A stretch of 30,753 nt of DNA from a virus, in the IMG/VR virus record IMGVR_UViG_3300009164_000231, positions 1 through 30,753 of that record. The stretch is one strand, 5' to 3'. Every line of letters starts with the position of its first letter. Position 1 is the first letter of the stretch. The notes under the pieces are model-generated. The model did no database searches. It had not been told where the DNA came from and saw nothing but the letters and a program-made list of their open reading frames with translations. This document shows positions 4,597-19,145 of the stretch, in pieces. Position numbers and translations under genes: made by a program.

Positions 4597-7500
4597 ATGG
4601 CAAGAATTAAAAAATACTCCCCAACGATTGACCCGCATTTAAAATACTACGAAACATTTTTAGTAGATACTGCGCCCAATTCAAGATACTTTAAGATTAC
4701 AGAGTTTAAAGATACTTTTACTGGTGGTAAAAATGGATTTTTAATTGAAGGTTCTCCTGAACTTTTGGAGTCTACGGAAATTAAGATTGAAATTTTAGAT
4801 GTTGAAGGAAACCCAATTTATTTTGAACCAGGTAATGGTATACCTGAATACTATGAAGGTAATTCTAAAGTTATAGCAGTTTATGTTTATGAGGATACCC
4901 CAATAGGTACGGCTGATATTACTATATTAGGTGAATTAAAAAAATATTATGATGGTGTTCAATTAAAAGATATACCTGATGAGTGGAAAGGTATTTATAA
5001 TGTAAAATGGCAGAGAGATTTTAAAGTAAACAAATTACTTTCAAATGAAGAAAAAGTAAGATTTTATAAAAGACCTACCATTACTATTACTGAAATTGTT
5101 AAACCTTTATTTACAACAATTTTACAACCAACTGTATTAAATGGGTTTGTTAAAGGGACTCCAATAGCACCATCTAATGAAACCTATTTAAAAGATTGGA
5201 CATTACCAACGTACTATAAACTAACGGCTGAAAATGATGGAACTAACCCCGCTGTATTTTTTACAGGTTCTATGGTAGGTACAAAATTAAATTTTAGTCA
5301 TCAAGTTTATGATGATATTAAAAACTTTAATCTTCCATACACCGACCCAATATTCGCTGCAGTAAATAGCTATTCACCAACTGTAGTAGAGGTATTAAAC
5401 TCTACTGAAATATTAGTAACCCAACCATTTACGATAGATAATAAATTTGGAAATCCATTTGTACAACCACTTCCAATTACTTTTCCAAAAAACCCCTTAC
5501 CTTATGATTATAATGGCGATGGTACTAATGATTCAATTGGATTTACTCAACAAGCCTTGGGTGTACCATTTACCGCATCTTTTATTGATACTAAAAATAT
5601 TATTAATATAGCAAGTGCACTAACTGGTTCATTTGCAAAAATAGATATAAGAGAATTAAGGACATTTACAGGTGATGTAGCTAGAGTTAGGATATTCAGA
5701 AAATCTCAATCAGATGTAGGAAATTATCAATTTACTCAAGAGGTGTTATTGGAATCAAATGAACTATTAGTAGATTATACTGTAGAAACAAAAAACCAAG
5801 AAAATTATGGTATATTTACAGAACCAATTATAACTGATTATTGGGATGCATCGGCTGGATTGACTACAACATTTAATCAAGATTATTTATACGATTCCGT
5901 AGAATTGGATGCTGGGTCTGTACCTAAATATTTTAGTACAAAAGATACATTTACTTTAAATGAAGGTAAGGAATATGCTTTAAGTTTTAATATTAGAAAA
6001 AACGGAATAGATGATACAAGTTATTTAAGAGCATTTATAAGTGGTTCAAGACAAGTAACAACAAACGGAGTAACAAAAACAATACAAATTCAGCAAGATT
6101 TTGTAAAAATATATACTGACCCCATTATATTACAAAAAACTACATCTACTAATAATATAAAAGTAGAACAAATAGATAATGCAAAACTTTATTTTGAAGT
6201 AAGAGGAACTAATTGGTATATAGCAAATGTAAGTTTAGTTGCTGCACAAGAAACAGCATTTTCTCCTGATGAAATAACATTTATACAATCAGTACCAAGA
6301 ACATTAACAGCAGAAACTTTTGATTATCGTTTTGAATTTTATGATATAAATAATAACTACATACCTGTAAAAGTTGAAACTCAAAAACTTTTTACTGGTG
6401 GTAATTTACAAGCAATTAAAAAGGGTATTTTCTTTAATCCAAAAATTTTAACATTTACATTTGATTCGGCATCCCATCCAGTACCACCAACTACACAATC
6501 ATTTAATGTAGAAAAGTTTTTAATTACTGGTTCTATAACTTATACATCACAATCTTATGATTATAATGGTAATTTATTATCTGGATTAGATTATCTTACT
6601 GCAGAAGGAATGCCTGGTTTATTAGATTTGTTCGACCCATTATCAGCATCTGATATAGATAATCCATCTATGACAGTAAATCATTTTACAGGTTCAAACG
6701 CAGATAAAACAGTCCAACTTATTAAAATTACAGGAACAACTGAAGGTTATTCAGATACAGTTACCTATGTTAGAATATTGGATGGGTTTGGTGGAGTAAA
6801 CCATATTATTAGACCTTATAGAGGAACACAAATTAGAAACAGTAGTACTCAAAGTTTAGAAGTACAAGCAATTAGAATAGATGGTATAAATGATATAGAA
6901 TTAAGTGCAGCATCAAGACCTGATAAAAAATGGAATTTAATCCAACTGCATGTACTGAGCGGTTCACAACCTTATCAAAAATTTATTAATTTAGAGAAAG
7001 CAAATAGTAGCGGGTTTGTGCAAGGATTAAGTGTTGGTGAATTAGGTAGTAAGGAATTAAACTTTAATGCCGTATTTAATCGTGATTCTATCAATAAAAG
7101 AATAACGGTATATATGATTGATTCTGCATCAGCAGCATACGATTGGGCATATAATACATCTGGTTCTGTTTTAGCATCTCAAATATTAGAAGATTTGCAA
7201 GATGGATTGGATAGTGGTATAGTTAAATTTAATGCAGATACATTTAATATTGATTTTAGAAATAGTCTATTATTTGCACCACCATCGGCATCAGCAACTG
7301 CGTCATTTTATATAAGGGGTTCGAATACCCAAACAGTAACTGCATCTTTCCAAGTATTTCCATCTATGTCAATTAATGATTGGTATGAGCCTGAATATTG
7401 GATATATTATACTACTCAAAGTGTGGATACTACAATATCAGTATCAGCTATTGATGAGAAAAAAAATGTTGTTAATGCTGGGGCAATCGGTTCGTATATA

Positions 7501-10500: not shown

Positions 10501-12150
10501 AAGGTAAGTATATCCCCACTAAAATTATTATCGGATTCTGGCGGCGGTTCAAACACTGTAAATTTCACAGGTTCATATTCGCCAGCAAATCCATCAATAA
10601 CAACAAATGCAGGTGATGGTTCACCCGTATTTGTAACTAGTTATTCAACAAAAACATCGACTGGTGGTTCTTCATCAAATGGTACATTTACACCAGCTGA
10701 CGCAGGTGATTATCAACTAACTATTGTTACTCCTAGTTTTGCAGTAGAAACCGGACCTGATACAATATCACATACTTCAACTGAACCAGACTTTGAAGCA
10801 CCTTACGATGGATACATACATACCGGATATTCTAATGCACAACAAGCATCTGCTGTTTTATATATAGAAGCCGTAAAAGTTAGTGATAATAGTGTAGTTG
10901 GTAGTCACCTTATTGGAAGTTCTACTTCCGTTGGGGCAAAAAATGTAGCTGGCTATTGGATTGGGTATCTTGGATATCTTTCTGTTACAGGCGATACATT
11001 AATTATAAATGAATTTGGAAACGAAGTTTATGCTAGAGATATTATTAGTGGACAAAATATAACTGCATGGAATTGGAGTGATTCGTTTAGCACATATAAA
11101 GTAGAAAATGTAAAAAGTAGAACTATTGATAAAGTATTCAAAGTTTCTGCTGGAGGTAATGAAGTAAAAGTATCAGATTCGCATGGATTTTGGTTAGATG
11201 GTAACGAACAAATCAAAGCTAAAGATTTAATACCGGGTGTTAGTAAAATAAATATAAGAGATGGTAATACTATTAAATTAGTAATTGTAGATGATGTGGA
11301 AATAATTGAGGGTGATGAAATGGTATATACATTCTCTGTACCTGGTGTAAATAACTATATTTCAAATGGTATAATATCTCACAATAGTCCAATGGGCATG
11401 ACAAACTGGGTAGAAGTACCTGAAAGTATCAACGCAGGTGGTTATGGCGCAATAAGTGGTTATACTCAGACAATAAATATGTATATAGATTCTACAACAC
11501 CAGTACAATTTAGATATAGATTTTATTATTACGCATATTCAGGAGTTCAAACTGATATAGGAGCATCCCCACTTTCTTATACCACTACCTATTATCCTTG
11601 GACATTTAATACATGGACCACATCACCATCATTTGCTAGTTCTATTATAGTAAAAGCACCAACAAACTTTGTTGAAATTAATGCAGGTGGAATGCAAGTA
11701 GTATCAGATGAAAATAGATACGTTAAAATGGCAAGACAAGAAGTTGGAGTTGGAGTTTCCGATTTACTTAAAGTTTTGGGCGGAAATATTAAAACAGATA
11801 CTATATTACCAAATGTGGCAGATACAAGTACTATTGGTACAAATGCGAATCAATATGGACATGTGTATGCTAATAATTTTACTAATAATGCATCTTCAGT
11901 AAGTGCAAACGGTTATACAAAATTAACAAATGGAATTATACTACAATGGGGATATGCAACCTACACTACAACAGCAACACCTGTGACATTTCCATTAACG
12001 TTCCCCACTGCTTGTACGTCTGTACATGTAACAACAAACAGACTTACTAATGGAGCAGGTGGATATAATCATGCTGGTGATGTAACAACAAGTGGATTTA
12101 AAGCAGTATTCGATGCAGTAGGTGGATGGTGGTCGGCAATTGGATATTAA
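4597..12150 (+). CDS. Giant tail-fibre-like protein (2517 residues) carrying a Hint/mini-intein segment
   Basis: A very large virion protein, probably a tail or baseplate fibre for receptor binding. The N-terminal 170 residues are unlike the rest and may attach to the virion. The middle is Ser/Thr/Asn/Gly-rich beta structure with related modules starting near residues 1009 (VTPANVTL) and 1140 (INPANVNL); two more beta modules begin near 1269 and 1374. Three short W/Y-rich modules near 1517, 1717 and 1779 recall chitin-binding-type carbohydrate modules. A DYNGDGTND loop (304-312) looks calcium-binding. Residues 2129-2263 form an intein-like segment listed separately. About 2393-2425 resemble the repeat that precedes fibre tips, and about 2438-2517 (NGYTKLTNGIILQWG) resemble the gp53-like tail-fibre C-terminal domain. 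A tail-assembly chaperone gene follows. The fibre role is inferred from C-terminus and neighbour; receptor and exact location are unknown. Confidence 0.8.
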   Translation: MARIKKYSPTIDPHLKYYETFLVDTAPNSRYFKITEFKDTFTGGKNGFLIEGSPELLESTEIKIEILDVEGNPIYFEPGNGIPEYYEGNSKVIAVYVYEDTPIGTADITILGELKKYYDGVQLKDIPDEWKGIYNVKWQRDFKVNKLLSNEEKVRFYKRPTITITEIVKPLFTTILQPTVLNGFVKGTPIAPSNETYLKDWTLPTYYKLTAENDGTNPAVFFTGSMVGTKLNFSHQVYDDIKNFNLPYTDPIFAAVNSYSPTVVEVLNSTEILVTQPFTIDNKFGNPFVQPLPITFPKNPLPYDYNGDGTNDSIGFTQQALGVPFTASFIDTKNIINIASALTGSFAKIDIRELRTFTGDVARVRIFRKSQSDVGNYQFTQEVLLESNELLVDYTVETKNQENYGIFTEPIITDYWDASAGLTTTFNQDYLYDSVELDAGSVPKYFSTKDTFTLNEGKEYALSFNIRKNGIDDTSYLRAFISGSRQVTTNGVTKTIQIQQDFVKIYTDPIILQKTTSTNNIKVEQIDNAKLYFEVRGTNWYIANVSLVAAQETAFSPDEITFIQSVPRTLTAETFDYRFEFYDINNNYIPVKVETQKLFTGGNLQAIKKGIFFNPKILTFTFDSASHPVPPTTQSFNVEKFLITGSITYTSQSYDYNGNLLSGLDYLTAEGMPGLLDLFDPLSASDIDNPSMTVNHFTGSNADKTVQLIKITGTTEGYSDTVTYVRILDGFGGVNHIIRPYRGTQIRNSSTQSLEVQAIRIDGINDIELSAASRPDKKWNLIQLHVLSGSQPYQKFINLEKANSSGFVQGLSVGELGSKELNFNAVFNRDSINKRITVYMIDSASAAYDWAYNTSGSVLASQILEDLQDGLDSGIVKFNADTFNIDFRNSLLFAPPSASATASFYIRGSNTQTVTASFQVFPSMSINDWYEPEYWIYYTTQSVDTTISVSAIDEKKNVVNAGAIGSYIGANNKQSKNLTLTFTYTEPYTNATANIDKTFTIVQSGKPGDETIIFEVTPANVTLNANSKGTVLDYKPSITDIRLKQGSRYLLFTASAGNPGKGNDGTFHIAQNQITSININSGSVYFNNSYTSSLSASAASNFVQLSGSITYPLIIHPYYTSSIYTASVVQQFTKAVDGAPPIQVIINPANVNLGADQIGIVKDYNQANTIIKLKEGTDYLVYTNTQQPGTFRTSSVTQTNISVSTLTADPSDTTNLIVSGYSAMNSNSASIQYNFDVYPYSLLPGHRTGSIAVSGSQYFTRTKDGQTARSVTLTANSLVITFDGDSSNPDPGTITLTAKSFGVTGSAYYQFFKDGISLGAPLTGTTKNLNSSYLPIANAKSVYKVELRDGSATLPVAATAEITIAGVKAGGDGYTVTLTNENTSIVYKVSGATTTTGTGTSILASKGTTALQHVSTFNNQTYDNDGTYIGSLGQYKVTIDSKSGWLALAGSLVSGSTVPTVSNVAVLGDISGYTSPNLYPTANIVFKVDVEDGRAVYYKTESIAVQYEGNTGPGIVMRGVYKATTNYIGSVETTNYRRDAVIYPDPTTVVDGVTTYYAAVSGSGPASSVHAPNAGGNNDWWQYLGTQEFFIAAKIAIFDESYVKNTINVGTYADTSKFANVIIAGGRTDPYIAIGQHGTYGTGSGGYSPTDPAIIGYGQEGIYLGIYEYPAVNGTTGRFSISNADGSKALKWDGSQLIIRGSIKQTDAGANEPTLKGVWAFGITYYNNDVVSYDGKSWICTSATSHFSTNNTNSTTGYPGFGPWSTYIDKGDTGAGVVYRGPFTIGTAYSSSAVRKDVVQGIDGAYYLSKLTYIPANTDSRPGVGQTAPAGSTAGTYWQTFGATFSSVATDILLAQEATITRGLVMGSDAGGIGVIRSVDAYSFTSGSGFFMDKTGIARFGNPAGNQIKFDGTDFQITGSINATDGQIGDWVIDETTRALRDSDSQLIFDPNVPEIQFYTGSGEGRSKKVSISPLKLLSDSGGGSNTVNFTGSYSPANPSITTNAGDGSPVFVTSYSTKTSTGGSSSNGTFTPADAGDYQLTIVTPSFAVETGPDTISHTSTEPDFEAPYDGYIHTGYSNAQQASAVLYIEAVKVSDNSVVGSHLIGSSTSVGAKNVAGYWIGYLGYLSVTGDTLIINEFGNEVYARDIISGQNITAWNWSDSFSTYKVENVKSRTIDKVFKVSAGGNEVKVSDSHGFWLDGNEQIKAKDLIPGVSKINIRDGNTIKLVIVDDVEIIEGDEMVYTFSVPGVNNYISNGIISHNSPMGMTNWVEVPESINAGGYGAISGYTQTINMYIDSTTPVQFRYRFYYYAYSGVQTDIGASPLSYTTTYYPWTFNTWTTSPSFASSIIVKAPTNFVEINAGGMQVVSDENRYVKMARQEVGVGVSDLLKVLGGNIKTDTILPNVADTSTIGTNANQYGHVYANNFTNNASSVSANGYTKLTNGIILQWGYATYTTTATPVTFPLTFPTACTSVHVTTNRLTNGAGGYNHAGDVTTSGFKAVFDAVGGWWSAIGY
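10981..11385 (+). other. Mini-intein-like Hint segment inside the tail-fibre gene
   Basis: Codons 2129-2263 (135 residues) show intein landmarks in order. Block A is SVTGDTLI, with Ser in place of the usual Cys at position 1. Block B is VKVSDSHGFW, with the block-B His at intein position 68. Block F is VYTFSVPGVNNYI. Block G is NGIISHN followed by Ser as the +1 residue, so the penultimate His, terminal Asn and +1 nucleophile are all present. There is no room for a homing endonuclease. Removal would join GYL to SPMGM within what looks like one continuous domain and leave a 2382-residue protein. Boundaries follow the canonical junction rules; splicing itself is inferred. Confidence 0.8.
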
Positions 12151-12163
12151 AAAATAAAAATAT

Positions 12164-12535
12164 ATGATTTATTACGCAACATTTAATGAAACGGGAGACT
12201 ATATTGGATTTTATACCAAAGAAATACATGGTGATAATATTCCAACCCCAAATGTAGAATTGACAGAAGAGCAATGGCAAGAAGCTATCACTGGTAGATA
12301 TAAATTAATAGATGGGGTACATACTCATAATCCATTTACGCAGGAACAATTAGATACTAGAGAACTATCAATAGCTAGGAGTAAACGAAACAATTTACTT
12401 AAGGAATCAGATTGGACCCAATTACCAAATAATCCACTAACAGCTGAAAAGCAAGAGGAATGGAATGTATATAGACAAAAATTAAGAGATATACCAGAAA
12501 CAATACCATATGTATTTCCAAATCCACCACTTTAA
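12164..12535 (+). CDS. Tail-fibre assembly chaperone-like protein
   Basis: A 123-residue protein directly after the fibre gene (13-nt gap). Its C-terminal half, from about residue 69 (ARSKRNNLLKESDWTQLP, then PLT, W, YRQKLRDIP), matches the pattern of the phage tail assembly chaperone family (PF16778-like), whose members are typically encoded next to tail-fibre genes and assist fibre folding or attachment. The N-terminal part (residues 1-60) is the variable portion of such proteins. No separate promoter box is visible, so it is likely cotranscribed with the fibre. Its presence supports the reading of the upstream giant protein as a fibre. Confidence 0.75.
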   Translation: MIYYATFNETGDYIGFYTKEIHGDNIPTPNVELTEEQWQEAITGRYKLIDGVHTHNPFTQEQLDTRELSIARSKRNNLLKESDWTQLPNNPLTAEKQEEWNVYRQKLRDIPETIPYVFPNPPL

Positions 12536-12919: not shown

Positions 12920-15112
12920 ATGAGTAAAAAGAAATTACTGTATATTTGTCCGCATCTTTCTACCGGCGGACAACCTCAATACACTTACAAGCAGATAAAG
13001 CAATTTATCAATGATTATCAAATAGAAGTTGTTGAAATAAACAATAGTGGTGGAAATGCGTTTGTAGTACAAAAGAATAGAATCAAAGCATTAGTTCCTG
13101 TTCATACATTAGGGGATAACAGAGCAGAAATAATTGATATCATTAATACTTTCAAACCTGATATTATACATTTTCAGGAGATTCCACAACATGATTTATC
13201 AACTGATATTTTAGATAGAATATTTTCGGATAAAAGAAAATATTTTATTGTAGCATCTACACATGGGTCTTTAACAAATCCTGAAGAAATAATTTACCAT
13301 CCCGATAGATATATTTTAGTATCCGAATGGAGTAGACAAAAGTTTATTGATACTGGTGTTGAAACTGATATATGGGAATATCCAATCGAAGAATATGTGT
13401 TTGATAAAGCAACTGCACAAAAAGAATTAGGATTTGAATCTGATTGGAAGCATGTACTTAATGTTGGATTATTTGCACCAGGTAAAAATCAAGGTGAAGT
13501 ATTTGCAATAGCAAGGCAATTAGAAAAATACAAAATTAAATTTCACTTTGTAGGAAATCAAGCTGGAAACTTTGAACATTATTGGGGAGATATAATGAAA
13601 TACAAACCTGATAATTGTATTGTTTGGGGAGAACGGAATGATGTTGATACTTTTTACGCAGCATCGGATATGTTCTACTTTAGTTCTATAATTGAATTAA
13701 ATCCGTTATCAGTTAAAGAAGCATTATCATACGGACTACCATCTATATTTAGAAAGTTACCAACTTATTTAGATACATACGATAATAATCCATTGGTTAC
13801 ATACATTGGTGATGATTTAAAAGTTACTAAAAAAATTATATTAGAAACTTTACAACCTGAATTCAATGAGATACCGGGTTGGTTTGTTTATGATACTATG
13901 TATGATGATATGGTTAAGAATGCTAAAGGTGGTGAAACTTTTGTTGAGTTGGGTTCTTGGTTTGGTAAGTCTACAAATTATATGGCAACTAAAATTAAAG
14001 AATCTGGTAAGAATATAAAATTCACAACAATAGATACATTTAAAGGAACTGCAGATGAAGGGTTGCATAATACAATAGTAAATGGTTCTTTTGATGGAGA
14101 TATATTTTATGAATTTATAGATAATACAATCATATCAGATAACTACGGAACATTTGATATCATAAAAGATACATCACATAATGCTACCAACCAATTTCAA
14201 AATAACAGCATTGATTATATAATGTTAGATGGTGGGCATAGTTATGAGGATGTAAACGAAGATATAAAACTTTGGTATAATAAAGTAAAACCGGGTGGAT
14301 ATATTTCTGGAGATGATTATGGTGGTAGTTTCTTTCCTGGTGTTACTAAAGCAGTTGATGAATATTTTTATAATCAATGTGAAATTGGATTTAGAACTTG
14401 GAAAATGAAAAAACCAAGAATACAAATAAAGCATTTATTAACAAGACCTGATGATGCTAGAGAAAGAGTAAGTATTCAATCATTAAAGCAATTATCAAAA
14501 TACGGAATGGATTATGTACAAATGATAAATACTCCATACGAAGGATTAGCACCTGTTGAAAATTGTAGAAGACCTGAAAATGTTAGTAAAGATAATAAGC
14601 CGGGTGAATTATATCCGGGAGCAGGTATTGGATATATTACGGGTAGACACTATGGTTGTTATCTAGCACATAGAGGAGCTTTGGAATCTATTGATGATAC
14701 AAATTATGATTATACTTTAATATTTGAAGCAGATGCTTTTATTAATGTAGGTATTGAGGAGTTTGTTGAAATAGTACATAGAGCTTGTTTCATTTCACAA
14801 AGAGATAATGTTTATTATATAGGATTCGCAAATAATCCTTCTTGGAATAGATGGGGAGTTGATGAACTATTTGCAAAAACTGATTTTAATCAAGACCTTG
14901 CACATTGTTATTTAATTCCAAATCGACACAAGCAATTCTATATGGATAGACTGGAAGATATTGGATGGGATGTTGGTGATTTATGGTACAACCATGTATT
15001 CTATGACCATAGACATTTGAGATATACAACTAATAAAAATTATAGTAAGCAAGCTGAGGGCTATTCTTTATTAGATGAAAAAATAAAAAGTTGGAAAGAA
15101 AATTGGAACTAA
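12920..15112 (+). CDS. Three-domain glycosyltransferase / methyltransferase / GT25-like protein
   Basis: A 730-residue multifunctional enzyme acting on a glycan or glycoconjugate. Residues 1 to about 310 resemble a GT-B, GT4-like transferase: a STGGQPQYT nucleotide-sugar loop near the N-terminus and an EX7E motif (ELNPLSVKE) in the second Rossmann fold. About 320-500 is a class I SAM-dependent methyltransferase; the Gly-rich motif is FVELGSWFGKS at 341-351, with an acidic TIDTF strand after it and MLDGGH further on. About 505-730 resembles GT25 (LPS-type) transferases: R and Y positions of the family, GRHYGCYLAHRGAL from 575 (compare GEIGCALSH) and the metal-site-like FEADAF (E603-D605). The acceptor and sugars are unknown. 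The stop overlaps the next start (TAATG), so the O-heptosyltransferase-like partner is translationally coupled. Domain assignments 1 and 2 are firmer than 3. Confidence 0.78.
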   Translation: MSKKKLLYICPHLSTGGQPQYTYKQIKQFINDYQIEVVEINNSGGNAFVVQKNRIKALVPVHTLGDNRAEIIDIINTFKPDIIHFQEIPQHDLSTDILDRIFSDKRKYFIVASTHGSLTNPEEIIYHPDRYILVSEWSRQKFIDTGVETDIWEYPIEEYVFDKATAQKELGFESDWKHVLNVGLFAPGKNQGEVFAIARQLEKYKIKFHFVGNQAGNFEHYWGDIMKYKPDNCIVWGERNDVDTFYAASDMFYFSSIIELNPLSVKEALSYGLPSIFRKLPTYLDTYDNNPLVTYIGDDLKVTKKIILETLQPEFNEIPGWFVYDTMYDDMVKNAKGGETFVELGSWFGKSTNYMATKIKESGKNIKFTTIDTFKGTADEGLHNTIVNGSFDGDIFYEFIDNTIISDNYGTFDIIKDTSHNATNQFQNNSIDYIMLDGGHSYEDVNEDIKLWYNKVKPGGYISGDDYGGSFFPGVTKAVDEYFYNQCEIGFRTWKMKKPRIQIKHLLTRPDDARERVSIQSLKQLSKYGMDYVQMINTPYEGLAPVENCRRPENVSKDNKPGELYPGAGIGYITGRHYGCYLAHRGALESIDDTNYDYTLIFEADAFINVGIEEFVEIVHRACFISQRDNVYYIGFANNPSWNRWGVDELFAKTDFNQDLAHCYLIPNRHKQFYMDRLEDIGWDVGDLWYNHVFYDHRHLRYTTNKNYSKQAEGYSLLDEKIKSWKENWN

Positions 15113-16260
15113 TGATATACGATAATTTAAAAAAGAATTTAAATAACATAATACAAATAAAAAACAAAGTAATTGTACACTTTGTTAGAGGACCTTTTGT
15201 TGAAGTAAAAGGAAATACAAATGCTGAGTATCGTATTGAATTTATAGATAGAAGTACTGGAAAAGTTATTCACACTGGAAACATAAAAAATAATATGTGG
15301 AGTAAGTGTAATATAGAATATTTTGTAAATTGGCAAATAAAGATATTCGAAAATGGAAAATTGTATGAGGAACATAACTACGATGCAACTGGTAAAAGAG
15401 TTTATATAGCTATGGATTCAAGAGCATTAGGTGATACATTGGCATGGTTTCCATACTTTGAAGAATTCCGAAAACAATGGGGATGCAAATTAATAGCATC
15501 AACCTTTATGAATGACATGTTTAAAGATGAATACCCAGATATAGAATTTGTAAATCCTGGCTCTGGTGTTGAAAATATATACGCAATGTATGGAGTTGGA
15601 TTATATTATAAAGAAAATGATGAATATAATGAATATAAAAATCCAAATAATTTTAGAGAGCAAACAACGCAAAAAATGGCATCTGATATTTTAGGATTGG
15701 AATATAAAGAAGTTAGACCAAAAATAAAAAAGAGAGATGTTAAAATAGATAAACAATTAAAGCAAGTTTGTATTGGTGTATTTGGAACGGCTCAATCTAA
15801 ATTTTGGAATAACCCAACAGGATGGCAGGATGTTGTAGACTGGTTGAATACTAGAGGTTATACAGTTAAATTAGTATCTAAAGAGGGAGATGACTATATG
15901 GGTAATAAACTACCAACCGGAATAATTAAACACCCAGAAGGACCATTAGAATTAGTTATGGATGAAATGAAAAAATCAAAAGCATTCATTGGAATTGGTA
16001 GTGGGTTGAGTTGGTTAAGCTGGGCCCTAAATGTTCCTACTGTATTGATTAGTGGATTCTCATATGATTGGGCTGAAATGCAGGATTGTGTAAGAATTGC
16101 GGCACCTAAAGGTAAATGTGAGGGTTGCTTTAATAGGATTAGATTAGATGCTGGGGATTGGAATTGGTGCCCTGACCATAAAGGTACTCATAAACAATTT
16201 GAATGTACAAGAACAATAACTTCAGATAGTGTGATAAAAGAATTGGAAAAATTCTTATAA
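15112..16260 (+). CDS. AAH/TibC-like protein O-heptosyltransferase (GT9-like fold)
   Basis: A 382-residue protein matching the autotransporter strand-loop-strand O-heptosyltransferase family (bacterial AAH and TibC), which transfers heptose from an ADP-activated donor to serines of surface proteins. An N-terminal beta domain (about 20-95) precedes the catalytic part. The family signatures are MDSRALGDTLAWFPY (from 101, with G107/D108), ASTFMNDMF, EYPDIEFVNPG, a donor-site region GIGSGLSWLSWAL, and a C-terminal Cys cluster C336-x2-C339, C353, C365 around GDWNWCPDHKGT, corresponding to the iron-binding finger of TibC. The start is the ATG overlapping the previous stop; a TTG seven codons upstream is less likely. 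Donor and acceptor here are unknown: candidates are the neighbouring fibre or a host surface protein. No ADP-heptose synthesis gene is in the window, so the donor would come from the host. Confidence 0.85.
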   Translation: MIYDNLKKNLNNIIQIKNKVIVHFVRGPFVEVKGNTNAEYRIEFIDRSTGKVIHTGNIKNNMWSKCNIEYFVNWQIKIFENGKLYEEHNYDATGKRVYIAMDSRALGDTLAWFPYFEEFRKQWGCKLIASTFMNDMFKDEYPDIEFVNPGSGVENIYAMYGVGLYYKENDEYNEYKNPNNFREQTTQKMASDILGLEYKEVRPKIKKRDVKIDKQLKQVCIGVFGTAQSKFWNNPTGWQDVVDWLNTRGYTVKLVSKEGDDYMGNKLPTGIIKHPEGPLELVMDEMKKSKAFIGIGSGLSWLSWALNVPTVLISGFSYDWAEMQDCVRIAAPKGKCEGCFNRIRLDAGDWNWCPDHKGTHKQFECTRTITSDSVIKELEKFL

Positions 16261-16278
16261 AAATTTAAAAACAATATA

Positions 16279-16293
16279 GTTATATATATAAAC
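16279..16293 (+). promoter_or_regulatory. AT-rich late-promoter-like box (degenerate)
   Basis: GTTATATATATAAAC, 17 nt before the start at 16311, in the place where other virion genes have TATATTTATA. It lacks the TTT core, so it is a weaker candidate. Confidence 0.25.
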
Positions 16294-16310
16294 AATAAAA
16301 AACATAAATT

Positions 16311-16742: not shown

Positions 16743-19145
16743 ATGAATGAATTATCAAATTTTTTAGTAGAATCAATATTATTGGAAGCGGCCTCTATAA
16801 ACAAAGTAATTGTTGTTTATTCTGGCCGCTTTCAACCTTTTCATAAGGGCCATTACGCAACTTATGATAATTTAGTACGCAAATTCGGAAAGGATAGTGT
16901 GTATATCGGAACTTCTAATGTTACCGATTCAAAGAAATCTCCATTTAATTTTAAAGAGAAGAAAGCAATAATGACAAATATGTTTGGTATTCCATCAAAC
17001 AAAATTGTCAATATCAGAAATCCCTATGCACCTGAAGAAATTCTAAATAAATACGATGAAGATACAACTGGTTTAATAGTTGTAGTTGGTGAGAAAGATG
17101 AGCAAAGACTTGGTGGTAAATATTTCACACCATATAAAGGTAAAGTAACTGAACCTTTTTTAGATAGAGGATATGTTTATGCAGCACCAGCAGAATCAAA
17201 CCCAATTAGTGGTACTGATGTTCGTTATTGGTTAAGTGCTGGAAGTGCTGCTGATAGAAAGAAAAACTTTACAAAAGCATATCCTAGATTTGATGACCAA
17301 ATATTCAAATTAATTACCCTTAAGTTAAAGAGTTTAAAAGAATGTATTAATGAGGAAATTAAAATAAATGTAAAAATTGGAGATACTATTCTAATGGGTA
17401 GATTTAAAAATAAAAAAGTAGTTGTAAAAACAATAGGTACAGATGATTGGGGAATGCCAACAATCAATGGTAAGAAGGTAGCAACATTTAGAATTCCAAA
17501 AAAAGATAATTTAAAAGAAATGGGACTTGGTGGCGGAGCTGGTGTAGGTTTAAGTTTACCGGGTGGATATATTAATGGAGCACCTGATAGTAAAGATGTT
17601 AAGAAGAATAGCAAAAAACTTAACAACAACGGAATGAGTGGATATGAGGAGATTGATGAAGAAAATAACATTTTAGAATACACTGGAAACGAAGCGTTTG
17701 ATAATGATACGGGTGGCACTACTGGACACACTTGGAATAAAGATTGGGAAGAATATGATAAAGCTGAATATTATTTAGAAGATTTAGAAGGTTGGGAAAA
17801 TATGAATCATAAGAGTGATAAAGATGACAAAATAAGAAAAAACAAAGTTCCAATTTTTAATCACGACGATACAACTGATAAATACAATCGTATATTAAAG
17901 CATGATTTAAAATCTCCTAATGATTTTATAAAAGAATCATTAATAATGGAAGGTGGAGCTTATGGACATATGGCACATCCATTTGATATTGAGATGGGTT
18001 TAACATTTGGTGACCTTAAACAAATAGTAGTAAGAGCTCTTAATGGTGATTTGGAATTAGCAAGAGAAAAGACTGATGGGCAGGCATTGGCAATTAGTTG
18101 GGTAAATGGTAGATTGGTTGCAGCTCGTAATAAATCTCATTTAAAAGATAAAGGAGTTGGTGCTATGACAATAGGACAGGTAGCAGATAAGTTTGCTGGT
18201 AGAGGTGGATTAACTGATGCATACAATTTCGCTATGCAAGATTTATCTAAAGCAATTGGAGCCCTATCCGAACCTCAACGTAAGAAGGTTTTTAACGATG
18301 GTAGTTCGTTTATGAACTTGGAAGTAATATATCCAACGTCTGTAAATGTAATCCCTTACAATCAACCCCTATTAGTATTTCATGGTACATTTGATTATGA
18401 TATGACTGGTACTATAATTGGACAAAATCAAGACGCAGCAAAAGTATTAGGTGGAATGATTAAGCAAGTAAATGCACACGTTCAATCCAAATATACAATA
18501 CAGGGACCTCCAATGCAAACACTTCCTAAAACCGAACATCTTTCTAAATTACAAGGAAAGTATTTAGGAATGATTTCTAAACTACAATCTGAATTTGGAT
18601 TAGCTGACTCTGATGGTGTAGCAGATTATCACCAAGCTTGGTGGACAAATTTTGTAGAAAAGGGAGCAAAGAAATTGGATGCACAGCAAAAGATAGGACT
18701 AATTAAAAGATGGGCTTTTGGAGATAAAAGCTTTCGTATAGCGGATATAAAAGATGATAAGATAAGAGCTTGGGCTGACCAAACAGATAAGCAAGACCAA
18801 CAAAAGATATCAAAGCAAAATTTAATGAGATTTGAGGAAATATTCTTAGGTGTGGGAGCAGATGTATTATCATTTATGACATCAGTATTAACTGCAAATC
18901 CTGCAGAAGCTACTAAACAAATGAAAGCAAAATTACAAAGTACAATATCGCAAGTAAAAGCAAGTGGTGACCCTAAAAAGATTGCAAAACTTAAATTAGA
19001 ATTAAGTAGAATGCAGGCTTTAGGTGGATTTGATAAAATCGTACCAAATGAGGGATTGGTATTTGTATATGGTGGAAACACCTATAAACTAACAGGTGCA
19101 TTCGCACCCCTAAATCAAATTTTAGGCATATTTTTTGATTCTTAA
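16743..19145 (+). CDS. Fusion of NMNAT-like nucleotidyltransferase and putative KxDG ligase-like domain
   Basis: An 800-residue protein with two enzyme-like parts. Residues 20 to about 195 form an HxGH-superfamily nucleotidyltransferase: GRFQPFHKGH at 28-37 and the ISGTDVR motif at 155-161, the pattern of NadM/NadR-type NMN adenylyltransferases, though a cytidylyltransferase role is possible. A Gly/Asp/Lys-rich linker (about 250-400) follows. From 404 on, the sequence EKTDGQALAI (K443 in KTDG), GRLVAARN and LEVIYP resemble motifs I, Ia/II and III of covalent nucleotidyl transferases (DNA/RNA ligases), with a possible motif V in LIKRWAFGDKSFRI. LLE/AAS at 13-18 and LIME/GGAYG at 400-408 fit prohead-protease cleavage sites and would release the two enzymes. 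The NMNAT-like part is well supported; the ligase-like part is tentative. It could serve NAD-dependent or RNA-repair chemistry at infection start. Confidence 0.65.
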   Translation: MNELSNFLVESILLEAASINKVIVVYSGRFQPFHKGHYATYDNLVRKFGKDSVYIGTSNVTDSKKSPFNFKEKKAIMTNMFGIPSNKIVNIRNPYAPEEILNKYDEDTTGLIVVVGEKDEQRLGGKYFTPYKGKVTEPFLDRGYVYAAPAESNPISGTDVRYWLSAGSAADRKKNFTKAYPRFDDQIFKLITLKLKSLKECINEEIKINVKIGDTILMGRFKNKKVVVKTIGTDDWGMPTINGKKVATFRIPKKDNLKEMGLGGGAGVGLSLPGGYINGAPDSKDVKKNSKKLNNNGMSGYEEIDEENNILEYTGNEAFDNDTGGTTGHTWNKDWEEYDKAEYYLEDLEGWENMNHKSDKDDKIRKNKVPIFNHDDTTDKYNRILKHDLKSPNDFIKESLIMEGGAYGHMAHPFDIEMGLTFGDLKQIVVRALNGDLELAREKTDGQALAISWVNGRLVAARNKSHLKDKGVGAMTIGQVADKFAGRGGLTDAYNFAMQDLSKAIGALSEPQRKKVFNDGSSFMNLEVIYPTSVNVIPYNQPLLVFHGTFDYDMTGTIIGQNQDAAKVLGGMIKQVNAHVQSKYTIQGPPMQTLPKTEHLSKLQGKYLGMISKLQSEFGLADSDGVADYHQAWWTNFVEKGAKKLDAQQKIGLIKRWAFGDKSFRIADIKDDKIRAWADQTDKQDQQKISKQNLMRFEEIFLGVGADVLSFMTSVLTANPAEATKQMKAKLQSTISQVKASGDPKKIAKLKLELSRMQALGGFDKIVPNEGLVFVYGGNTYKLTGAFAPLNQILGIFFDS

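Follow-up and report, generated by a model that had tools for sequence, protein, structure and literature searches.

Why would a phage encode a protein glycosyltransferase best known from bacterial autotransporters, and on what would such an enzyme act? The question is raised by the 30,753-base viral record IMGVR_UViG_3300009164_000231, T4-like in character (hereafter the window, meaning this whole stretch of DNA). In it, an open reading frame (ORF) for an AAH/TibC-like enzyme, ORF B, overlaps by TAATG with ORF A, which encodes a protein of three putative domains. The original prediction, made from the letters alone, had read the two as a phage protein-glycosylation system, and both ORFs and their overlap were found where it had placed them. 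Family resemblance, fold, catalytic residues, gene pairing, HldE-like neighbours and an association with repeat proteins were established by computation. With moderate confidence, we propose from these sequence comparisons that the pair forms a phage-encoded protein O-glycosylation module acting on the phage's own virion fibres, with heptose placed on Gly-Ser/Thr-X repeats.

ORF B resembles the AAH/TibC O-heptosyltransferases

Comparison of ORF B with NCBIfam profiles returned the autotransporter strand-loop-strand (SLS) O-heptosyltransferase family TIGR04414 at 283.8 bits (1.8e-84), above its cut-off of 200, while the profile of lipopolysaccharide (LPS) heptosyltransferase I reached 27.7 bits; Glyco_transf_9 (GT9) scored 22.7 bits. 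TibC (4rap, 2e-51) was the sole clear sequence relative in the PDB, and no PHROGs family was retrieved at E 0.01. The AlphaFold model of ORF B (pLDDT 93) superposed on TibC 4rap with a TM score of 0.85 over 372 columns; other GT-B enzymes reached about 0.5 at best. The AAH/TibC-like assignment made in the original prediction is borne out by these data. So are the details on which it drew. The N-terminal beta domain is recognized weakly by Pfam TibC_1st (17.9 bits, cut-off 27) and modelled as strands at residues 19-89. The GDTLAW motif, within ALGDTLAW, aligns with TibC Asp-110, and the cysteines of the Cys4 iron finger align with TibC Cys-339, Cys-342, Cys-358 and Cys-370.

Equivalents of TibC Asp-110, Thr-226, Lys-230 and Trp-305, together with the four iron-finger cysteines, were kept in 84 of 84 phage homologues and in all 152 rows of the residue alignment (141 phage and 11 bacterial-record rows; the phage rows include six second copies of contigs, which were dropped, with other doubles, to leave the 135 loci of the coupling count below). 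At the thumb tip (TibC F265/V266), tyrosine is found in 136 and methionine in 138 of the 141 phage rows. The window ORF B has Tyr and Met there and also a Phe equivalent to TibC Phe-368, so that the hydrophobic thumb tip and Phe-368 both have counterparts. Two features of the family, Arg-286 and an autotransporter partner, fail as marks of membership, and we therefore call ORF B BAHT-like. In family, fold and catalytic residues it resembles the AAH/TibC O-heptosyltransferases.

ORF A encodes a three-domain partner

ORF A gave clear Pfam matches to Methyltransf_24 (8e-19) and Glycos_transf_1 (3.3e-10). The glutamates of the GT4 E-x7-E motif (Glu-259 and Glu-267) were invariant in 24 aligned sequences, and the wider structural comparison, which covered the GT4 domain alone, placed it closest to HepE, BshA and PimA (Z about 22-24). 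NovP was among the Foldseek matches of the Methyltransf_24 domain. The third domain matched GT25 weakly (E 0.037 alone, 0.011 as a separate domain; 16.1 bits, below the PF01755 gathering score of 24). In an alignment of this domain that included the window sequence, 12 of 14 members matched GT25 at E up to 0.1, the best at 2.4e-5; a search with the domain profile retrieved no PDB relatives up to E 1. The GT4-methyltransferase-GT25 fusion described earlier is thus clear for its first two domains and agrees, for the third, with the matches of its relatives. In three homologues (L005, L007 and L035) the methyltransferase domain is missing while the two others are present; methylation would therefore be optional.

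The enzyme is widespread in phages and coupled to glycosyltransferases

Relatives were sought in IMG/VR with the window protein and with a profile; counts of loci refer to the 80 kept per scan and not to lineages, and some contigs appear under two locus identifiers. The scan with the window protein retrieved 139 relatives of ORF B, and the profile scan showed that at least 596 viral stretches encode such relatives. The INPHARED phage records gave only four matches, of which two do not differ in length or scores. Among the four is an isolate, Microcystis phage Mel-JY01 (PP395634, 4747-8430; L082), in which the BAHT-like domain ends a 1227-amino-acid (aa) protein annotated only as methyltransferase FkbM, with an N-terminal part that matches GT4. 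No paper naming Mel-JY01 was found in the open-access literature.

The phage loci number 135, and in 8 of them the contig is cut upstream of the enzyme gene. A glycosyltransferase gene lies directly upstream in 105 (in 90 of them in the full three-domain form), the BAHT-like domain forms the end of a longer protein in 21, and a single locus, L084, has neither arrangement. The scan covered 18 of the 21 long proteins; the ORFs of the other three, L154-L156, are as long as that of L153. A GT4 start was found in 16 of the 21, by direct match in L142, L145, L152, L158 and L164 and by Pfam in L082, L083, L140, L146, L148, L149, L153, L157, L159, L161 and L162; of the remainder scanned, L163 had no match and L165 starts with a methyltransferase. 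Coupling to a glycosyltransferase, as an upstream gene or as a GT4 fusion, was thus present in 121 of the 127 phage loci with readable upstream DNA. The gene pair expected in related phages is indeed there, and some phages fuse the enzyme to a GT4 domain.

The module was also seen from the other side. When loci were collected through the downstream ligase-like gene, 23 of the 27 kept loci with 2 kb of upstream sequence carried it; some of the contigs had already appeared in the first set. The module is missing from the other four. In L242 (510-6380), which is one of them, the slot is occupied by an epimerase gene and further genes of sugar type, as if its contents were exchangeable.

In a tree of the family, phage and bacterial-record rows are mixed, and well-supported branches force six changes between the two; the deep joins are unsure because of several long branches. 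Two of the bacterial records, a Bacteroidetes metagenome-assembled genome (MAG) that holds a terminase-like ORF (L091) and a Rickettsiaceae MAG (L086), look phage-derived, and both group with phage rows.

HldE-like genes follow the enzyme gene in relatives

In 79 loci of the clade, both ORF B and the next conserved gene could be read. The gap between them falls into three classes: about 50 bases (44 loci), about 425 (10 loci) and about 1165 (25 loci). All gaps of the two longer classes, that is 35 of the 79 loci, hold an ORF for a nucleotidyltransferase (128-149 aa as called), and all 25 of the longest also hold one for a PfkB-type kinase (246-253 aa); examples are L036:11146-11535 for the former alone and L049:11143-11529 and 11519-12262 for both. 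In L050, whose contig is cut soon after, the nucleotidyltransferase is present as well. The best NCBIfam matches of the neighbours tested are the two domains of HldE (TIGR02198 and TIGR02199). The nucleotidyltransferases scored 89-95 bits against 51-60 bits for the next specific family other than HldE, a lead of some 33-44 bits, and the kinases 91-105 bits, with HldE matches up to 110.7 bits in whole records. Both genes also follow the GT4-BAHT fusion of the distant locus L158. In L226, a small gene resembling 2-oxoglutarate-Fe(II) oxygenases (5458-6054; PF13640, 22.8 bits, cut-off 27) lies between the two.

The window has no HldE-like genes, and the host would therefore have to supply the donor there. 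Such genes, present in relatives, could not be seen from the window itself. Taken as a whole, the original interpretation is partly supported.

Enzymes of nucleoside-diphosphate (NDP)-heptose synthesis are known to occur in viruses, where their role is called unsolved in the available part of a review (PMC11573728). In the accessible portions of two further papers, the rfaE gene of pelagimyophages (PMC7029224) and gmhC, listed as a viral auxiliary gene in a Lake Baikal table (PMC9611531), are filed under LPS synthesis.

Gly-Ser/Thr-X repeats as candidate acceptors

The SLS repeats glycosylated in autotransporters were sought with TIGR04415. None of 20 records, many of them fragments, had a match over the cut-off, and the one match seen (17.1 bits) was chance-like; SLS repeats were accordingly rejected as the acceptor.

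Repeats of another kind accompany the enzyme. A first test for arrays of Gly-Ser/Thr-X triplets, confined to the fetched stretches, gave 4 of 80 against 0 of 80, which is too weak, and whole contigs were therefore searched. Each search yielded at least 120 stretches, of which 80 were listed; from those listed, we took 50 of the 51 Gly-Ser/Thr contigs of at least 20.5 kb (L295 was dropped to stay at 50) and the 49 Gly-Pro contigs of at least 20 kb, minimum length being the sole length criterion. A BAHT match at E up to 1e-10 was found in 19 of the 50 viral contigs with Gly-Thr-Ser-type arrays and in none of the 49 with Gly-Pro-Q/E/K arrays (Fisher P 2.8e-7). Since the same profile finds BAHT in the Gly-Ser/Thr set, the empty control is not a failed search. 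General richness in glycosyltransferases is unsupported as the cause of this link, as GT4 was present in 2 of the 31 array contigs without BAHT against 10 of the 49 Gly-Pro controls.

Bacterial loci point in the same direction. All nine that are not phage-like (L087-L090 and L092-L096) have a Gly-Ser/Thr-X triplet array, such as GTSGTSGTA, within 8 kb of the enzyme gene: six times it is in the next gene, in L093 it is one gene away, and in L092 and L096 it lies about 6 kb off. Methylobacter is one of the bacteria with a repeat protein next to a BAHT-like gene. When whole bacterial genomes were searched with a strict DNA pattern, it occurred in that locus only in six of them (G036-G041). In G034, one of three clusters is at the locus; in G035, a strict match lies about 17 kb off and a weaker array is adjacent; in G042, the strict matches among those listed lie in or just before the locus. 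Gly-Ser/Thr arrays are also found near the enzyme in many diverged phage loci. An array of 149 such triplets lies at the start of the Mel-JY01 record, and a fibre fragment bearing the repeats is encoded at L483:6551-9796, on the minus strand.

In the clade of the window, the array proteins that were read have Collagen domains, and two of them have Mtd_N. In G002, adjacent genes encode a protein of 897 aa with 100 triplets and one of 1082 aa with 161; both match Pfam Collagen, and the second begins with Mtd_N. A similar pair, one member of which is cut by the contig end, is present in G013, and in G004 giant repeat proteins adjoin a gene whose start reads like that of a tail sheath protein, which it probably is. 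Eleven of the clade contigs searched extend 25 kb or more beyond the enzyme, and a strict array was detected somewhere in 9 of them; among the 17 shorter contigs, which include the window, 2 had one. In G044-G046, three clade records in which the enzyme was not found, there is no strict array. The repeats of the clade thus sit in probable tail-fibre genes beyond the window.

Proposed function and alternatives

From the results above we infer the sugar, the acceptor and the order of steps. Most likely, ORF B would move heptose, or a related sugar, from ADP-heptose or another NDP-heptose to Ser/Thr of Gly-Ser/Thr-X tail-fibre repeats, and ORF A, translated with it, would use its GT4 and GT25-like domains to extend the glycan and would also methylate it in those phages that have the methyltransferase domain. 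A plausible order would be heptose first, followed by extension and methylation. For the donor, roughly two in five clade loci would contribute an HldE-like nucleotidyltransferase of the phage's own, in many cases together with a kinase that is likewise HldE-like. As to purpose, fibre stiffness or protease resistance, a change of host range, and masking are guesses.

Several observations weigh against this proposal. The position of TibC Arg-286 is occupied by Val in the window ORF B and in 127 of the 141 phage rows. According to the part of PMC4358343 that deals with it, this residue contacts the adenine in TibC and is highly conserved in the family, and its change to Ala abolished or largely diminished activity. 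The original prediction had named loss of donor-binding residues as a refutation, and such loss is seen in part: Asp, Thr, Lys and Trp are kept and Arg is not. The position is also not Arg in 8 of the 11 bacterial-record rows, which speaks for variation in the wider family and not for decay; with the other tested residues invariant, we rejected the loss as the mark of a dead enzyme. The replacement may mean that the donor base or the sugar differs from that of TibC. The HldE-like proteins score below the curated cut-offs of TIGR02198 (345) and TIGR02199 (181.5), and GmhA was matched in only 1 of 26 records, LR756504. That record (L166) is a 636-kb phage genome in which GmhA, at 430182-430640, exceeds its curated cut-off (251.5 bits) and lies about 27 kb from the BAHT-like gene.

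As to the repeats, 31 of the 50 array contigs have no BAHT, so the link is not strict, and such contigs may be incomplete or use other enzymes. Nor are the contigs independent of one another, and a shared lifestyle, instead of a relation of enzyme to substrate, could account for the association. The bacterial loci are few and partly related. The arrays located in the clade lie about 17-46 kb from the enzyme gene, not beside the pair. No strict array was found in two clade contigs that run more than 30 kb past the gene (G015 and G043), in LR756504, which has BAHT, or in the near relatives G001 and G003, whose contigs extend some 8 and 13 kb beyond the gene. The window has none either; it ends 14.5 kb after the enzyme, and this absence therefore says little.

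Could the enzyme be BAHT-like and act on collagen-like fibres with a sugar other than heptose, the HldE-like genes making another NDP-sugar? The changes at Arg-286 and at Pro-300 would fit. The latter residue sets stereoselectivity in TibC and is Gly in the window ORF B and in 130 of the 141 phage rows. The sub-threshold HldE scores and the 25 of 26 records without a GmhA match would fit as well. Both neighbours nevertheless match the two HldE domains best, the nucleotidyltransferases by the margin given above, and we hold a different sugar to be improbable, if still a serious contender. Outside the virion, the main rival is a change of the host surface, in which the enzymes would alter host LPS or surface proteins and so block other phages or re-adsorption. 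Pelagimyophage glycosyltransferases and rfaE are usually read in this way, as in the available part of PMC7029224, and the GT9 heptosyltransferase similarity of ORF B is in keeping with it; against it stand the far higher score with TIGR04414 than with LPS heptosyltransferase I, the Cys4 finger and N-terminal strands, which are BAHT features, and the co-occurrence of repeats with BAHT against the Gly-Pro control. We regard this explanation as unlikely.

Within the virion, the main rival is a different acceptor, in the first place the neighbouring 2517-aa fibre or some other non-collagen protein of the virion. The original prediction had proposed this fibre as a substrate. Its gene comes before the pair in many loci, separated from it in the window by a chaperone gene, and 8-11 Gly-Ser/Thr triplets occur in or near the fibre region in 15 listed loci representing 11 different contigs. 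Where some relatives have these triplets, the window fibre shows only GNTGPG and GDTGAG, each a run of two triplets. In L160, SbcCD is the gene that precedes the pair, and no giant fibre intervenes; SLS repeats over the cut-off are absent, as noted above. The fibre is not the best candidate, the controlled association being with Gly-Ser/Thr-X repeat proteins encoded elsewhere in the clade genomes, and another acceptor appears quite unlikely. Glycosylation of the phage DNA, as in T4, is very improbable: T4 alpha-glucosyltransferase (1y6g, Z 19.8) is among the structural matches of the GT4 domain, but its score is equalled or exceeded by those of many other GT4-type enzymes, and ORF B resembles a protein-modifying family, though no search was aimed at base-modification genes. 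Heptosylation of the phage's own collagen-like fibres is thus the reading that we retain.

More tentatively, phages could run an O-heptosylation pathway of their own, with HldE-like kinase and nucleotidyltransferase, BAHT and GT4/GT25 extension, that coats collagen-like Gly-Ser/Thr fibre shafts. The wider BAHT family, in phages and several bacteria, would then be the glycosyltransferase of Gly-Ser/Thr triplet proteins, with AAH and TibC as one specialised branch.

Genomic context of the pair

In the window, primase and SbcCD-like genes are followed by the fibre gene, the fibre chaperone gene and the pair, and genes for a T4-like terminase, portal, head protease and Gp23 lie downstream, in agreement with the phage origin assumed earlier. 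Among 50,697 phage records, the terminase is nearest to those of Flavobacterium phages of the immuto group (57.6%) and Microcystis phage Mel-JY01 (55.7%). Positions of the features are collected in Table 1. The ATG of ORF B occupies 15112-15114, within the overlap, and an in-frame TTG is found at 15091.

Table 1. Features of the module and its surroundings in the window
Feature	Position	Strand	Description or basis
ORF A, 730 aa	12920..15112	+	GT4-like, ~aa 1-315; Methyltransf_24/TylF-like, ~aa 326-490; GT25-like, ~aa 500-730
ORF B, 382 aa from ATG	15112..16260	+	AAH/TibC-type (BAHT-like) O-glycosyltransferase
Asp-108 codon	15433..15435	+	Counterpart of TibC catalytic Asp-110; alignment, 141/141 phage rows
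Lys-230 codon	15799..15801	+	Counterpart of TibC Lys-230 (phosphate and heptose contact); alignment
Val-282 codon	15955..15957	+	Arg-286 (adenine contact) in TibC, a departure from TibC; alignment
Codons of Cys-336, Cys-339, Cys-353 and Cys-365	16117..16206	+	Iron-finger cysteines; alignment
Short gap 3' of ORF B	16261..16310	+	Site of HldE-like gene(s) in 35/79 clade loci; locus comparison
Tail-fibre protein, 2517 aa	4597..12150	+	Gp53-like_C; ORF list, domain match
Tail-fibre assembly chaperone	12164..12535	+	Phage_tail_APC; domain match
Coiled-coil-like protein, 94 aa	12589..12873	+	Beside the pair; its 131-aa relative is on the opposite flank; locus comparison
Coiled-coil-like protein, 131 aa	16311..16706	+	Beside the pair; locus comparison

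Related coiled-coil-like proteins flank the pair on both sides in 64 of 81 clade loci, at least some of the others being cut by contig ends. An intein-like Hint segment was noticed near the C-terminal part of the fibre (residues ~2140-2263; PF14890, 25.7 bits, cut-off 35.8); it has SVTGDT close to the beginning and ends with SHN-S. At 16743-19145, an 800-aa protein combines an N-terminal domain resembling nicotinamide mononucleotide (NMN) adenylyltransferases with a conserved C-terminal part; the EKTDGQ in the latter we take to recall a nucleotidyltransferase/ligase motif. The order of the two domains is swapped in L052 and L053.

Significance and comparison with known systems

The module suggests what hundreds of uncultured aquatic phages may do with a protein glycosyltransferase of autotransporter fame, and the repeat association proposes a substrate class for bacterial BAHT-like enzymes that have a repeat protein alongside. 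Glycosylated collagens occur in animals and giant viruses; if the proposal is true, a glycosylated collagen-like phage fibre would resemble them and would be relevant to the resistance of phage fibres to degradation and to their encounter with hosts. Why viruses carry enzymes for heptose nucleotides is called unsolved in the part of PMC11573728 cited above, and the module would offer an answer that can be tested. A direct test is possible, since the isolate Mel-JY01 carries a homologue.

Mycobacteriophage virion glycosylation, the BAHT of autotransporters and viral heptose enzymes are each known. Searches of the open-access literature found no paper that joins the three, in agreement with the earlier statement that no phage system of this form had been described. 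Virion-protein glycans of mycobacteriophages are reportedly linked to phage-encoded glycosyltransferases. They are placed at the C-termini of capsid and tail-tube subunits (Freeman et al. 2023, as cited in the accessible part of PMC12619734), whereas here the enzyme is of another family and collagen-like fibres are the proposed acceptors.

With the AAH/TibC enzymes (TIGR04414; PDB 4rap and 4rb4) ORF B shares the profile score over cut-off, the fold, the Asp/Thr/Lys/Trp set, the Cys4 finger and the hydrophobic thumb tip. It differs in residing in phage genomes, in its GT4-methyltransferase-GT25 partner, in having Val for Arg-286 and Gly for Pro-300, and in being accompanied by repeats of another kind, with no SLS repeat over cut-off in the 20 records. 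The two small proteins encoded 3' of ORF B in relatives resemble HldE in that its two domains are their best matches; unlike HldE, they are encoded by split genes, stay below the curated cut-offs and stand beside a protein-type glycosyltransferase. The weak GT25-like domain of ORF A recalls collagen GT25 enzymes, and COLGALT1 (PDB 9evj) was among the Foldseek matches (1.7e-7); this alignment spans several domains at a root-mean-square deviation of 16.7 and is a lead only. Similar in setting is the host-recognition region of pelagimyophages (PMC7029224), which likewise belongs to aquatic myophages and has glycosyltransferases and rfaE, many of them near tail fibres. Its authors read it as modification of the O-chain, and the available parts of that paper mention neither BAHT nor a repeat acceptor, whereas the module described here would act on the phage's own fibres.

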